DNA from: Candidatus Melainabacteria bacterium
GTDB taxonomy: Bacteria > Cyanobacteriota > Vampirovibrionia > 2-02-FULL-35-15
Direction of reading: 5' to 3'
DNA: 61,929 bases
Assembly (NCBI GenBank): GCA_016201905.1
Contig: JACQBQ010000023.1
Coordinates: forward strand, 1 to 61,929
Positions 1,372-58,857 of this stretch are shown in pieces. How positions within the stretch are numbered: position 1 is the stretch's first letter; each line of letters starts with the position of its first letter. A program made the position numbers and the translations under genes. Below the pieces are notes generated by a model. That model was not told the DNA's origin. It made no database searches and saw only the letters and a list, made by a program, of their open reading frames with translations.

Positions 1372-2346
1372 ATGAATAATCTAAAAACTAAAAAACTTCT
1401 AATCTTTGGCACAGGAGCTGTCGGTGGTTACTATGGTGGAATGCTTGTAAAAGCTGGCTTTGATATAACTTTTATAGCCCGAGGAAAAAATCTTGAAGCA
1501 TTAAAGAACAATGGTTTGACGTTAATTATAAATGGTAAGAAAGAGAATTTCCCTATTAATGTCTTAGAGACGTTGCATGCAACGTCTCTAAAAAAAACAT
1601 TTGATTACATATTTATTTGTGTTAAATCAATGGATACAAAAGATGCAGCACTTAAAATAAAAAATAATGTGGGTTACCATACAAATGTCCTTTCTTTTCA
1701 AAACGGAGTGGATAATGAAGAAATTATTGGAGAAGTAATTGGGATTGATAAGGTTATTGGTTCTAGTGTATATGTAACCTCAAAGCAAGTAGCGCCTGGA
1801 GTAATTGATCAATTTGGCTATAATGCAGTTATGTTTGGAGAGTTAGACAAAAGTGAATCAAAGAGAGTGTCAGAATTAAAAAGTATTCTTGAATCTAGTG
1901 GAATAGTATGTGTTCTCTCAAAAGATATATTAGGTGATTTATGGAATAAGCTTGTTTGGAATGCTTCATTTAATCCTGTTAGTGTTTTGACTGAAAAAAC
2001 TGTAGATAAAATGCTGAGTGATAAAGAAACCTTTGAGCTTATAAAAAATATTATGCTTGAAGTAAAAAACGTAGCACTTGCGCATGGAATAGGTATTAGA
2101 CCAGACACGGTAGAGTTTAATATCAACAGATCAAAAAATATAACTCCAAATGCTACTCTGTCACAAGACTTTAAAGGTTTTAAAACATCAATGCTGCAGG
2201 ACTTTGAAAGAGGCAAACCAATTGAGCTTGAGGAAATTGTTGGAGTTGTCATAAGAAAGGCTAAAGAAAAAAATGTAAGTGTGCCTAATATTTTTAATGT
2301 TTATACTCGATTAAAAGAAAAAGTTAAAAATCAAATTGCAATTTGA
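1372..2346 (+). CDS. panE: 2-dehydropantoate 2-reductase (ApbA/PanE family)
   Basis: A 324-residue NADPH-dependent ketopantoate reductase that makes pantoate for pantothenate and CoA. The N-terminal Rossmann motif GTGAVGGYYGG begins at residue 13. The block KLVWNASFNP (about 198-207) is the conserved substrate-side helix containing the family Lys and Asn, and LQDFERGKPIELEEIVG near residue 275 is the usual C-terminal signature. Length is close to the family norm. A perfect 28-bp palindrome lies inside the gene at 1564-1591 without breaking the frame. coaBC, further along the same pathway, is at 20.4-21.7 kb. Some family members reduce other 2-oxo acids, so substrate is by family only. Confidence 0.88.
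   Translation: MNNLKTKKLLIFGTGAVGGYYGGMLVKAGFDITFIARGKNLEALKNNGLTLIINGKKENFPINVLETLHATSLKKTFDYIFICVKSMDTKDAALKIKNNVGYHTNVLSFQNGVDNEEIIGEVIGIDKVIGSSVYVTSKQVAPGVIDQFGYNAVMFGELDKSESKRVSELKSILESSGIVCVLSKDILGDLWNKLVWNASFNPVSVLTEKTVDKMLSDKETFELIKNIMLEVKNVALAHGIGIRPDTVEFNINRSKNITPNATLSQDFKGFKTSMLQDFERGKPIELEEIVGVVIRKAKEKNVSVPNIFNVYTRLKEKVKNQIAI
1564..1591. repeat. 28-bp perfect palindrome inside panE
   Basis: The half-site TTAGAGACGTTGCA is followed directly by its exact reverse complement, with no loop. It closely resembles the GTAGAGACGTTGCATGC-type small dispersed palindromes I recall from filamentous cyanobacteria. Here it encodes residues around LETLHATSL of the reductase, in a region where the family is variable in sequence. 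Confidence 0.85.
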
Positions 2347-2447: not shown

Positions 2448-3326
2448 ATGAGATTATTACCAACCATTGCAACAGCATTAGTACTTCCATTTGCAAGTAC
2501 CGGATGTATTGAAGAAAAAGAAGATTCCAAAAATACCCCAGCTATAACTAAACCAGCTCAAGATGTTAAAAAAGAAGATGCGAAAAGTGCTCCAGTTGTA
2601 ACTAAGCCAGCTGAAGATATTACAAAAGAAGATTTAAAAAAAGTTCTAGTTCTTATCAATGCTGATAGAGTTAAAAGCAATAAAGGTTCACTGCCAGAAT
2701 TATTTAAACTCCATGACTTTAATGGAAATGGGAAAATTGATGTTCCTGAAGAAGCACTTGAATTCCATTCGGACAGAGCAACCCATGATCATGCTGTATT
2801 GTATACCTGCTTTAATACACCTTACGAAAAGACAAGAGAAGAAGTAAAAAAAGTTGCTGATTGGTTTATTAATGTCGGTAACTCAAAGGGTACAAGCCCT
2901 GAAGAAAAAGAGGTTTTTCTGGATGTTGCTGCAAGGCTTTATGAATACATGAAAAACAGAGACTCTATTCTTACTCCACTTCCTAGAATATTGGCTGAGT
3001 TTGATGAAGATAAAAATGGAAGTATTGATGTAAAAGAAGCACTTAAATTTTATGAAACAAGAACTAAGATAAAATTAGAAAGAGATAATAAAGGACAAGT
3101 TACACCAAGAGACTTTAGAAAGGTAATAGATGCTTTTGCAGCAGAAAAATATGAATACCTGCTAAAAGAAAGAGGTGTAGGAAGAGTATTAAATATACCG
3201 ACTTCTTCAGCGCGATATATATGTGGTGATATTATATGTGAATTACAAAGACAATATTCAGAGCTATATGGACCATATGATCCCCTTTCAGCTCAAAAGT
3301 CAACCAGACTTATAGATAGAGACTAG
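2448..3326 (+). CDS. EF-hand lipoprotein
   Basis: A 292-residue exported protein. A hydrophobic start is followed by a lipobox-like ASTGC (Cys20), so it is probably lipid-anchored. Next comes a charged linker with a near-duplicated KPAxDxxKED segment (about 35-60). Two canonical EF-hand loops follow: residues 90-101 (D-N-N-K-D-E at the ligand positions) and 186-197 (D-D-N-S-D-E), so it should bind calcium. A tail of about 90 residues is unassigned. The start is supported by AAGGAG eight bases upstream. Two other EF-hand proteins occur at 9.5 and 55.4 kb. The specific function is unknown. Confidence 0.8.
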   Translation: MRLLPTIATALVLPFASTGCIEEKEDSKNTPAITKPAQDVKKEDAKSAPVVTKPAEDITKEDLKKVLVLINADRVKSNKGSLPELFKLHDFNGNGKIDVPEEALEFHSDRATHDHAVLYTCFNTPYEKTREEVKKVADWFINVGNSKGTSPEEKEVFLDVAARLYEYMKNRDSILTPLPRILAEFDEDKNGSIDVKEALKFYETRTKIKLERDNKGQVTPRDFRKVIDAFAAEKYEYLLKERGVGRVLNIPTSSARYICGDIICELQRQYSELYGPYDPLSAQKSTRLIDRD

Positions 3327-5952: not shown

Positions 5953-6039
5953 CGTCATTGCGAGGAGCGTTAGCGACAAAGCAATCTCAAAAACGTTTTA
6001 GAGATTGCCACGCCTCACTTTGTTCGGCTCGCAATGACG
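5953..6039. repeat. CGTCATTGCGAG palindromic repeat, copy A
   Basis: Outer arms CGTCATTGCGAG (5953-5964) and CTCGCAATGACG (6028-6039) are exact reverse complements. Inner arms GCAATCTC (5981-5988) and GAGATTGC (6001-6008) are nested within. It sits between sat and trpC, ending 10 bases before the trpC ATG. Copies B and C are at 42.1 and 54.2 kb. It looks like a non-coding MITE-like or REP-like element. Confidence 0.9.
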
Positions 6040-6049
6040 TGAACACAAA

Positions 6050-6874
6050 ATGAATATTCTTGAAGAAATAATCAGACATAAAAAAAACGAGGTCGCAAAG
6101 TCTAAGGAAAACCTGCCTCTCGATAAGTTAAAAAAAGAAATTAAGCGACATGAATATAAAAGAGGTTCTTTTAGTGAAGCATTAAAAGAAAAGATTAAAA
6201 AAAAAGAAGTTGGGTTAATTGCTGAAATTAAAAAAGCATCACCTTCAAAAGGCATAATAAGAGCTGATTTTAACCACATTGAAATAGCAAAAGCATACAA
6301 AGCTGGTGGGGCAACATGCTTATCAGTCCTGACTGATGAAAAATACTTTCATGGGAATTTAAGCTATATAAAAGAAATTAAAACAGTGGTTGATCTTCCA
6401 ATCCTAAGAAAAGATTTCATTGTCGATCCATATCAAATCTATGAATCTGTTTATAATCAATCAGATTGTATTTTATTAATTGTAGGCGCATTTTGTGAAA
6501 TACCTTTGCTGGGTGACTTGTATGAGATTGCTTGTGAGAATGAAATCGATACGTTAATTGAGGTGCACGATGAAATAGAGATGGAGATTGCGTTAGATCT
6601 TGTAACTGGGGTCGCGCGACCCCAGTTGCTGGGCATAAACAACCGCGATCTTAAAACATTTAAAACCAATCTCAACACTACAAAAACTCTTGTAAAAAAA
6701 TATAGACGAGATTTTGATGGAAAAATAATTGTAAGTGAATCAGGAATATTTACGAACAAAGATATTAAGTCATTAATTGAAGATGATGTTTATGTGTTTT
6801 TAGTAGGAGAAAGCTTAATAGCAAAGAAAGATATTGAAGAAGCTACAAAAAGATTGCTTAGTGTTTACTTTTGA
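6050..6874 (+). CDS. trpC: indole-3-glycerol phosphate synthase
   Basis: A 274-residue TIM-barrel enzyme of tryptophan synthesis, converting CdRP to indole-3-glycerol phosphate. Conserved blocks are present: EIKKASPSKG (about 62-71, catalytic Lys), RKDFIVDPYQIYE (about 123-135, second Lys), LIEVHDE, GINNRDL and VSESGI. Before GINNRDL the protein has about seven extra residues (VTGVARPQ region) compared with E. coli TrpC as I recall it. That stretch is encoded by a perfect 24-bp palindrome (6604-6627). No other trp genes lie nearby. The 3' end overlaps convergent tatC by 10 bp. Confidence 0.93.
   Translation: MNILEEIIRHKKNEVAKSKENLPLDKLKKEIKRHEYKRGSFSEALKEKIKKKEVGLIAEIKKASPSKGIIRADFNHIEIAKAYKAGGATCLSVLTDEKYFHGNLSYIKEIKTVVDLPILRKDFIVDPYQIYESVYNQSDCILLIVGAFCEIPLLGDLYEIACENEIDTLIEVHDEIEMEIALDLVTGVARPQLLGINNRDLKTFKTNLNTTKTLVKKYRRDFDGKIIVSESGIFTNKDIKSLIEDDVYVFLVGESLIAKKDIEEATKRLLSVYF
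6604..6627. repeat. 24-bp perfect palindrome forming an in-frame insertion in trpC
   Basis: The half-site AACTGGGGTCGC is followed by its exact reverse complement. It is far more G+C rich than the gene around it. Its 24 bases correspond to 8 codons and coincide with the extra residues of this TrpC just before the conserved GINNRDL block. Confidence 0.88.
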
Positions 6875-9532: not shown

Positions 9533-9898
9533 ATGTACATTAGCCCAGCTTCAGAAAAAACAAGTTTAGGTATAGGAGTTTTAGCAGCTTTACTTGGTCT
9601 AGGAGGACTAGCTTTCATATCATCTACTCAAAAGATGAGTGAAAGACAAGAAATAACAGAATTAATTAGCAGGAGTGATAAAAACAAAGATGGCAGACTC
9701 TCAGTAGAAGAAGCTACAGAGGTTATTTATAACGAATATGGCGTTAATAAAGATAGATTTATCTCAAGTAATAAAGTAAGAGACATAAGTCAGCAAGCAA
9801 AGAGAATGGGAGAACTTGGTTTTAAGGATGCAAGCCAAAATATCTTTTATGCTTTAAGCGAAATTGGCAGAAAACAAATAGAAAGACAAGAAAAATAA
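9533..9898 (+). CDS. small EF-hand membrane protein
   Basis: A 121-residue protein with one N-terminal membrane helix (about 11-30, LGIGVLAALLGLGGLAFI). A single canonical EF-hand loop follows at residues 49-60 (D-N-D-R-S-E at ligand positions, in DKNKDGRLSVEE), and then an amphipathic helical tail. The start has a strong site (AAAGGAGGAGAC then ATG). It lies within the small-gene cluster and probably shares its transcript. It may sense or buffer calcium at the membrane, but that is inference from the motif. Confidence 0.7.
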   Translation: MYISPASEKTSLGIGVLAALLGLGGLAFISSTQKMSERQEITELISRSDKNKDGRLSVEEATEVIYNEYGVNKDRFISSNKVRDISQQAKRMGELGFKDASQNIFYALSEIGRKQIERQEK

Positions 9899-16494: not shown

Positions 16495-16523
16495 GTAAGG
16501 GCAAATTTAAAACCTGCCCTTAC
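16495..16523. repeat. short GTAAGGGCA...TGCCCTTAC inverted repeat upstream of thrC
   Basis: GTAAGGGCA (16495-16503) and TGCCCTTAC (16515-16523) are exact reverse complements around an 11-base AT-rich loop. It lies just upstream of the likely thrC promoter. It belongs in style to the GTAGGG-type small palindromes of this window. Confidence 0.7.
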
Positions 16524-42083: not shown

Positions 42084-42172
42084 CGTCATTGCGAGGAACG
42101 CAGTGACGAAGCAATCTCACAAACGTTAGGAGATTGCCACGTCGTCCGCCTAGGCGGACTCCTCGCAATGAC
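42084..42172. repeat. CGTCATTGCGAG palindromic repeat, copy B
   Basis: Begins CGTCATTGCGAGG (42084) and ends CCTCGCAATGAC (42161-42172). Inner arms GCAATCTC and GAGATTGCC recur as in copy A. Near the 3' arm is a perfect palindrome GTCCGCCTAGGCGGAC, shared with copy C but absent from copy A. Confidence 0.9.
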
Positions 42173-42200
42173 AATTAAGCATGATAAAATAATTAGTCAT

Positions 42201-54230: not shown

Positions 54231-54359
54231 CGTCATTGCGAGAAGCGCAGCGACCCACTCCGACTTGTCGGAGACGAGGCGAGCGAAGCAATCTCAATAT
54301 TGTGAATAAGTTAGTGAGATTGCCACGTCGTCCGCCTAGGCGGACTCCTCGCAATGACG
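54231..54359. repeat. CGTCATTGCGAG palindromic repeat, copy C
   Basis: Outer arms CGTCATTGCGAG (54231-54242) and CTCGCAATGACG (54348-54359). Compared with copy B it carries an additional palindrome, CTCCGACTTGTCGGAG (about 54258-54273), inserted on its 5' side. It shares GTCCGCCTAGGCGGAC with copy B. Its end overlaps a possible ilvE -35 box. Confidence 0.9.
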
Positions 54360-56425: not shown

Positions 56426-57085
56426 TTATTTTTTCCGAGCCCAGACCAGCCTACTTCCATAATTGTTTTTGTCAAAAGATAAAATATCAAAATTTGAAAG
56501 TAGTTCTTTTAGTTCATTGTCAGAATAATTTCTAAGCATCATCCCCTGACGCATTTGATCGGTGTAAACATGTGTAGAATCACTCAGCTCAAAATACTCT
56601 CCTTTGCCTGAACCTACTTGATCAAAGCAGGCAAATAAAAATCCTTTTTCAGTTAAAATCTTATGGACTTTTTCAAATAATACTTTTGCTTGATCGAATC
56701 TAAAGTGTTCCAGAACAGAATTGCAAACCACTGCATCAAAAGAATTTTCTTTAAAAGGCAGATTTAAAAGATCACCGACCAAAAAATTTACTTTTGCATT
56801 ATCTTCGCTTGCCCAGGTTTTTCCAAGCTCAACTGCTGGCTTTGCAATATCAATTCCTGTAACATCAAAACCATACTTTGATATGAAAATTGAAAGCCAT
56901 CCTGAACCGCAGCCTAAATCTAAAACTTTTTTTACCTGATACTTTTTCAGCTTCCGTGTAATTTCATGAATGTATGGAAGCTTTGGCAGTTCTTTGTGGG
57001 GCTTGCTAACTCTTTTCCAGGCTTCGTCCCAAAACTTGAGATTTTCTTCGTAGATTTTACTTATATCATTTTGTGTAGTGGTCAT
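56426..57085 (-). CDS. class I SAM-dependent methyltransferase
   Basis: A 219-residue methyltransferase. Motif I is [19 protein letters not shown] (about 55-73), followed by the acidic end of strand 2 ([11 protein letters not shown]) and CNSVLEHF (motif IV/post-I region, about 116-123). The substrate is not evident; the HVYTDQMRQ segment is family-like only. Start codon close to the divergent ilvD gene (57 bp gap). Confidence 0.85.
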
Positions 57086-57141
57086 ATGTCAGCTATAATC
57101 TAACATATAAAACCTTACAGAGCAAGAATAAAGAGAGCCAA

Positions 57142-58857
57142 GTGAAACCAGACTTAAAAAAACAAAGTAAAACAATAACCAGTGGACCAGAGAGAGCACC
57201 CCACAGAGCGTTTCACCGTGCAATGGGGCTTGGTGATAAAGAGCTTAGTCAGCCTTTTATTGGAGTTGCCAGTACATGGAATGAAGCTACCCCATGTAAC
57301 TTAACTTTGAAAGATCAAGCTTATGCCATTAAAAAATCTATTATTTCAAATGGTGGAACACCACGAGAATTTGTGACGATTTCTGTAAGCGATGGAATTG
57401 CAATGGGTCATGAAGGAATGAAATCCTCGCTTGTCAGTAGGGAAATTATTGCTGATTCTGTAGAGCTTATGATGCGAGCTCATTGTTATGACGGGTGGGT
57501 TGGAATTGCTGGTTGTGATAAAAGTCTTCCTGGCATGATGATGGCAATGGCTAGATTAAATCTGCCAGCCATATTTTTATATGGTGGAACTATTATGCCG
57601 GGGAAGTACAAAGGAAAAGATTTGACCATAGTCGATGTGTACGAAGCAGTTGGTGAACATAATGTAGGTAAAATTTCAGATGAAGAACTATATCAGATCG
57701 AGTGCAATGCATGTCCTGGTGCTGGTTCGTGTGGAGGGCAGTTTACGGCAAATACCATGGCATGTGTAGCTGAAGCTATTGGAATAGCACTTCTGGGAAG
57801 CAGTTCTTATCCGGCAGTTGATCCTGATCGGGCAAAAATCCATAAAATTGTTGGTGAAAGGATAATGCATCTTCTAAAAGAAGAAATTTGTCCAAGAGAC
57901 ATAATGACAAAAAAAGCTTTTGAAAATGCAGCAAGAATTGTTGCAGCAACAGGTGGTTCTACAAATGCGGTTTTACATCTTCCTGCTATGGCACATGAAG
58001 CTGGGATTAAATTTTCTCTTGAAGACTTGGATAAAATTTTTCAAGAAACGCCTTATTTTGTAGACTTAAAACCAGGCGGAAAATACGTAGCATATGATGT
58101 TCACAAGGTTGGGGGAATACCTGTGATTTTAAAACAACTTTTAGATATAGGACTGCTGCATGGAGATTGTCTGACTGTTAGCGGAAAAACTCACAATGAA
58201 AATTTAAAAAATATAAAACTTACACCAAATCAAGACGTAATACTGCCCATAGAAAAATCTTTAAATAAAACTGGTGGTGTAAAAATCTTAAAAGGAAATC
58301 TTGCACCAGATGGAGCTGTAATAAAAGTGGCAGGATTAAAAAAATTAACTTACCGTGGACCTGCAAAAATATTTAACAGTGAACAGGATTGTTTTGAAGC
58401 AATTATAGAGAAAAAAATTAAGCCGGGTGACGTGGTGGTAATACGCTATGAAGGACCGAAAGGCGGGCCTGGTATGCGTGAAATGCTTTCTGTAACTGCA
58501 GCACTGTACGGTCAAGGGCTTGGAACTGAATGTGCGCTAATTACAGATGGAAGATTTAGTGGTGGAACTCGTGGACTTATGATAGGACATGTAAGTCCTG
58601 AAGCGTATGTAGGCGGACCGATTGCACTGATTCAGGATGGAGATATTATAGAAATCAATGCTGAAAAAGGAACGATTTCAGTGGAATTACCCTACAGTGA
58701 ATTAAAACAAAGGAAAAGTAAATGGAGTCCACCAAAACCAAATTACACATCAGGAGTTTTAGCAAAATATGCAAAGCTAGTTGGGAGTGCAAGAGACGGT
58801 GCTGTTACTAATTTAAAATTAGATGTAGAAGCATTACATGCAATGCCTCTACCGTAG
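57142..58857 (+). CDS. ilvD: dihydroxy-acid dehydratase
   Basis: A 571-residue Fe-S dehydratase that makes 2-oxo acids for Ile, Val and pantoate. Cluster Cys are in [20 protein letters not shown] (location about 126-145) and [19 protein letters not shown] (about 190-208). The substrate-binding [11 protein letters not shown] lies near residue 470. The start is GTG at 57142, with GAGAG upstream. Full length. ilvE lies 2 kb upstream on the same strand with three opposite-strand genes between. Confidence 0.95.

Follow-up and report, generated by a model that had tools for sequence, protein, structure and literature searches.

An in-frame palindrome in trpC of a Candidatus Melainabacteria bacterium, probably a diverged copy of a double-foot-REP-type family

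Described palindromic elements

Double-foot REPs are associated with subclass 2.4 of the TnpAREP transposases and have been reported in Cyanobacteria, Bacteroidetes and other phyla; tnpAREP genes themselves also contain in-frame REPs (Quentin et al. 2018, PMC6006769). The palindromes analyzed here resemble them in their length, in a GT[AG]G 5′ end with its complement at the 3′ end, and in the position of the transposase genes' own copies, between the HUH and Tyr motifs. As in double-foot REPs, long stems recur throughout the genome, judged by the excess of the 27-29-nt class over shuffled sequence, with cores that vary and a trpC core that is single-copy. They differ from published double-foot REPs in their occurrence in Melainabacteria, in their in-frame residence in many housekeeping enzymes, in sites shared across genera and in variable, symmetric cores. 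The trpC copy differs further by its degenerate feet, GTAA...TTGC, where canonical feet would be GTAG...CTAC.

Di Nocera et al. (2013, PMC3733652) described REPs in frame in genes and REPs within uvr and other repair genes, and found that two Xanthomonas carry different REPs at nearly one and the same position in recB. Like the GTAG-tagged REPs of that work, the present elements are short, palindromic, RAYT-associated and in part intragenic; unlike the classical ones, which have an unpaired tag at one end and a loop, both of their ends pair and the loop is absent. Preservation of REP palindromes by complementary mutations was noted earlier (Nunvar et al. 2010, PMC2817692). A likeness of another kind is to quasi-palindrome template switching, in which imperfect inverted repeats are perfected by compensated changes in one step; being a mutation process and not an element, it would explain symmetry, not spread or common feet.

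Rickettsia palindromic elements (RPEs) other than RPE-4 and RPE-6 are longer, members of one family resemble each other in sequence, and no transposase is known for them. The very small mobile repeats of cyanobacteria associated with Elhai may be a close precedent. The likeness to RPEs is one of form, as these too are in-frame palindromes in many unrelated proteins (Ogata and Claverie); RPE-4 and RPE-6 are CGTC-type repeats (PMC3733652). The original prediction had read the trpC palindrome as an RPE-like mini-element that inserted in frame without disrupting the enzyme, an interpretation that was largely right, except that the nearest relatives are double-foot REPs. Elements of this kind have been described before; new here are the lineage, the extent of residence in housekeeping enzymes, and shared sites with changing symmetric cores.

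The trpC palindrome and its site in relatives

The window is the whole 61,929-nt stretch of DNA analyzed, which belongs to a 2.28-Mb assembly in 59 contigs (the genome under study, labeled G000). It was compared with other genomes of the same family (G001-G010) and with outgroups. The features of interest are listed in Table 1.

Table 1. Coordinates of trpC, its palindrome and sister elements in the window
Feature	Position	Strand	Basis or context
trpC, indole-3-glycerol phosphate synthase (IGPS), 274 aa, intact	6050..6874	+	ORF, phmmer, NNR motif
Loop-less 28-nt palindrome, halves GTAACTGGGGTCGC and GCGACCCCAGTTGC, 13/14 pairs	6602..6629		Inside trpC
Perfect 24-nt inner part, halves AACTGGGGTCGC and GCGACCCCAGTT	6604..6627		Exact position in trpC
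Ten codons versus five in insertion-free relatives (net +15 nt)	6602..6631	+	Alignments
Sister element TTAGAGACGTTGCATGCAACGTCTCTAA, 14/14 pairs	1564..1591		In frame, ketopantoate-reductase-like ORF 1372-2346
Sister element GTAGAAGCATTACATGCAATGCCTCTAC, 12/14 pairs	58825..58852		C-terminal end of ilvD (57079-58854)
Sister element, 29-nt form GTAAGGGCAAATTTAAAACCTGCCCTTAC	16495..16523		At or before start of threonine-synthase-like ORF

Among solved IGPS structures the best match to TrpC was 3tsm (phmmer, E 5e-58), and the invariant NNR motif is retained. The perfect, loop-less 24-bp palindrome announced by the original prediction inside the TrpC frame is present exactly as described; it lies at the center of a 28-nt element whose sole mispair is T/G and which encodes residues 185-194 (VTGVARPQLL) in frame. 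A codon-shuffle test on this stretch gave p 0/100. A GT[AG]G foot paired with a 3′ C[TC]AC, the double-foot REP criterion, is absent from the trpC copy; the double foot GTAG...CTAC is found in the trpC copy of G009 and in other copies of G000.

Searches of the 2.28-Mb genome retrieved no second copy of the 24-mer with up to three mismatches, and no match to the half-site outside trpC with up to one mismatch; the assembly holds no donor copy for the trpC core. As neither the 24-mer nor the half-site has copies beyond trpC, a sequence-defined repeat was dropped in favor of a family defined by form. Uniqueness in the genome had been named beforehand as an argument against a mobile element: the sequence is indeed unique, but what the family keeps is form.

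An AlphaFold2 model computed with a TrpC alignment (mean pLDDT 92.9) places the palindrome-coded segment in a loop (183-192), after a helix (175-182) and before a strand (193-197) that leads into N197-N198-R199. In this confident model the element precedes the GINNRDL strand in an alpha-beta loop. In TIM barrels, loops before strands lie on the face opposite the active site, and tolerance of an insertion is therefore expected. On this view, the trpC element occupies a permissive surface loop on the barrel side away from the active site, and the enzyme is intact.

TrpC proteins of G004, G005, G006, G010 and the outgroups have no insertion; by alignment, their loop is about five residues shorter and reads like ...ALNINPQMIGINNR. 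Five additional residues are found at one TrpC position in G000, G001, G003, G007 and G009, in a 30-nt stretch that begins with the element. The gain relative to insertion-free relatives is five residues and not about seven. In total, five other family genomes have an occupied trpC site. In G009 the palindrome is perfect (halves GTAGGGTCAGGTCG and CGACCTGACCCTAC), G003 and G007 have imperfect palindromes of another core type, and the G002 element is displaced by 6 nt (two codons). G008, with a single additional residue, lacks a palindrome. Extra residues shared by palindrome-free relatives would have spoken against an insertion, and one relative, G001, comes near that situation: its palindrome has decayed (4/14 pairs) but the right foot, CCCTAC, is kept. 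The other palindromes at the same TrpC site, the empty loops and the many core genes with such elements support the in-frame element reading. Since 28 is not divisible by three, about 13 nt of the former trpC loop must have been lost or overwritten, suggesting that the element did not arrive by clean insertion.

Other features were noted in the window. Three inverted pairs of CGTCATTGCGAG repeats (5953-6039, 42084-42173 and 54231-54359; 6 matches versus 1 expected) resemble CGTC-tagged REP dimers; the first lies just upstream of trpC and is separate from the palindrome. A small protein encoded at 2448-3326 has two EF-hand-like motifs, DFNGNGKIDVPEE and DEDKNGSIDVKE, and a further small ORF with a similar motif lies at 9533-9898.

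A palindrome family and candidate transposases

The census covered 1.21-1.33 Mb of the 2.28-Mb genome. In 1.21 Mb, 26 28-mers with a GTA or TAC end and at least 11/14 pairs were found, versus 1-6 in three dinucleotide shuffles, all of which scored only 11/14. Strict GTA...TAC palindromes of 28 nt numbered 9 in 1.33 Mb and 0-1 in four shuffles; those of 18-21 nt were near chance level. The class that stands far above shuffles in G000 consists of loop-less elements of 27-29 nt with GTA...TAC ends and variable cores. In genomes of the same family, the pattern GTAGGG-N-CCCTAC occurs in up to 37 copies per genome, mostly as 28-mers, whereas a non-complement control gave 0-1. Seventy 28-mers were listed from five family genomes, 43 of them perfect, with a core pairing of 7.46/8 as opposed to 3.99 with shuffled right arms. 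As the search pattern fixed the outer six bases only, this core symmetry is not a search artifact. The family is defined by length, ends and symmetry, and not by sequence.

At least ten in-frame copies reside in recognizable, Pfam-supported genes of G000: maf, trpA, a glutamate-racemase-like murI, uvrD, leuS, recJ, uvrC, a TRAM/radical-SAM protein gene, fmt and ilvD. Further genes have in-frame copies in relatives. With TrpC and TrpA, two tryptophan-pathway enzymes carry an element. For fmt, uvrC, trpA, murI, uvrD, leuS and recJ, the site used in G000 is occupied in other genera too, usually by a different, symmetric core. Site lengths read by hand from the orthologous-site alignments gave an average net gain of about 2 residues at occupied sites, compared with 9.3 for a bare insertion.

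Symmetry statistics were computed on 37 elements hand-picked from the same alignments, as automatic calling of occupied sites with a fixed score overlooked decayed copies. Two-sided compensated differences at orthologous sites numbered 246, versus a mean of 60 (maximum 141) with right arms shuffled. A tree of nine genes for the family was poorly resolved, too weak for counting gains and losses.

Individual sites showed additional arrangements. Palindromes lie at one trpA site in several genera (L075, 8074-8101; L178-L183), and trpA of G003 looks as if a second element had split the first. In G006 the uvrD loop (L210) contains a near-perfect palindrome, yet is the shortest of all loops compared, arguing that the element replaced this loop and did not lengthen it.

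RAYT-like ORFs were found in G000 (two), G002, G005, G006, G007 and G009. Most of those inspected contain, in frame and between the HUH and Tyr motifs, a perfect or near-perfect palindrome of the same type, with a core that differs each time. Palindromes in this same linker were recorded in several genera (L135, 1482-1509; L136, 1599-1625; L095, L098, L100, L137-L141, L144 and L145). The two G000 ORFs, on C40 and C30, have NHLH, WQ and internal palindromes; the Tyr motif is an exact YIKNNP in C30 and YIINNL in C40. The PF01797 profile alone missed the G000 transposases, and NF047646 gave three weak matches in the two ORFs, both of which score below the NCBIfam HMM cut-off. A RAYT/TnpAREP-type HUH transposase is most likely the mover of the palindromes.

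Origin and renewal of the elements

With a probability of about 0.78, the trpC palindrome is a resident, diverged copy of a double-foot-REP-type family that is spread by RAYT proteins and renewed at the DNA level. Loop-less elements of 27-29 nt with GTAG...CTAC ends would have been spread in the lineage by HUH transposases of the RAYT/TnpAREP type, with single-stranded hairpins as their substrate. In the permissive TrpC loop the palindrome would have been present, or have repeatedly arrived, in six genera, and arrival together with the loss of about 13 nt would have restored the frame in survivors. Renewal on DNA hairpins could then proceed through replacement by another element at the same spot or through hairpin-templated (quasi-palindrome) correction. 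Several observations count against this explanation: the trpC copy has neither a canonical foot nor a donor core in the assembly, the mean gain of about two residues is not what plain insertion predicts, and the link to the transposase is indirect, given the sub-threshold scores of both RAYT-like ORFs. The trpC copy is accordingly not a canonical double-foot REP, but a diverged element that works like this family and most likely derives from it.

How the site came to hold different cores may be accounted for in two ways, each a finer version of this explanation. The first, which we rate slightly below even odds, is repeated independent arrival or cassette-like exchange at one permissive loop. 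It agrees with the different core types per genus at a single site in fmt and trpA, with nested or duplicated elements (trpA of G003, uvrC of G005), and with shifts of the element by a few codons in uvrC, uvrD and murI and by 6 nt in trpC of G002. It would nevertheless demand a strong hotspot, as the nucleotide register is identical across several genera in trpC and fmt, and it fits poorly with a trpC core that has no donor in the assembly and with the recJ copies, all three of which share a degenerate left foot despite different symmetric cores.

The second, to which we give a somewhat smaller chance, is a single ancestral insertion in trpC before the genera split, followed by rewriting of the core through quasi-palindrome replication errors. 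The common register and net +15 nt in trpC of G000, G001, G003, G007 and G009 are consistent with it, and this shared register and the shared recJ foot favor descent. This second account also agrees with the excess of single symmetric base-pair differences: within genomes, 22 element pairs are separated by just one symmetric base pair, as against 4 separated by a single nucleotide. Inverted-repeat arms are known to be homogenized by template switching (PMC8794818, PMC8604942). On the other hand, cores that share a site in different genera scarcely resemble each other more than unrelated cores do (similarity 0.517 versus 0.474, permutation p 0.018), a slight likeness that favors turnover. The trpC cores of G000 and G009 differ at about 10 of 14 paired positions, and G005 and G010 belong to the genus of G009 yet lack its trpC element. 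Genome-wise clustering of the cores of the 37 elements gave no significant signal, and the site signal was weak.

A need for an mRNA hairpin in trpC, for attenuation, stability or pausing, is a very improbable reason for the persistence of the palindrome. Its predicted RNA fold is strong (-24.4 kcal/mol, z -3.6), but no U run follows it, many relatives have no trpC element at all, and like palindromes occur in unrelated genes. A selected mRNA hairpin would moreover favor G-U pairs, whereas coding-strand mismatches in the orthologous-site elements were A-C in 29 cases and G-T in 26, without such a preference. RNA selection is therefore not supported, and symmetry appears to be kept or renewed at the DNA level. 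A chance coding palindrome or an assembly artifact, for which the single occurrence of the exact trpC sequence might speak, was rejected as having next to no probability in view of the shuffle controls and of the palindromes that other genomes carry independently at this position.

Under the explanation of a resident, RAYT-spread family, we tentatively propose, at a little under an even chance, that in this lineage coding palindromes at fixed sites of housekeeping enzymes are continually renewed at the DNA level, the core being exchanged or symmetrically rewritten in a single step, with site, length and frame unchanged. If this is true, loops of essential enzymes would be diversified by a hairpin-based process and not by ordinary point mutation. 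The different symmetric palindromes in orthologous enzyme loops constitute a natural experiment on re-transposition versus hairpin-templated rewriting, a question in REP evolution, and may show how mobile palindromes supply essential proteins with new peptide segments while leaving them intact.
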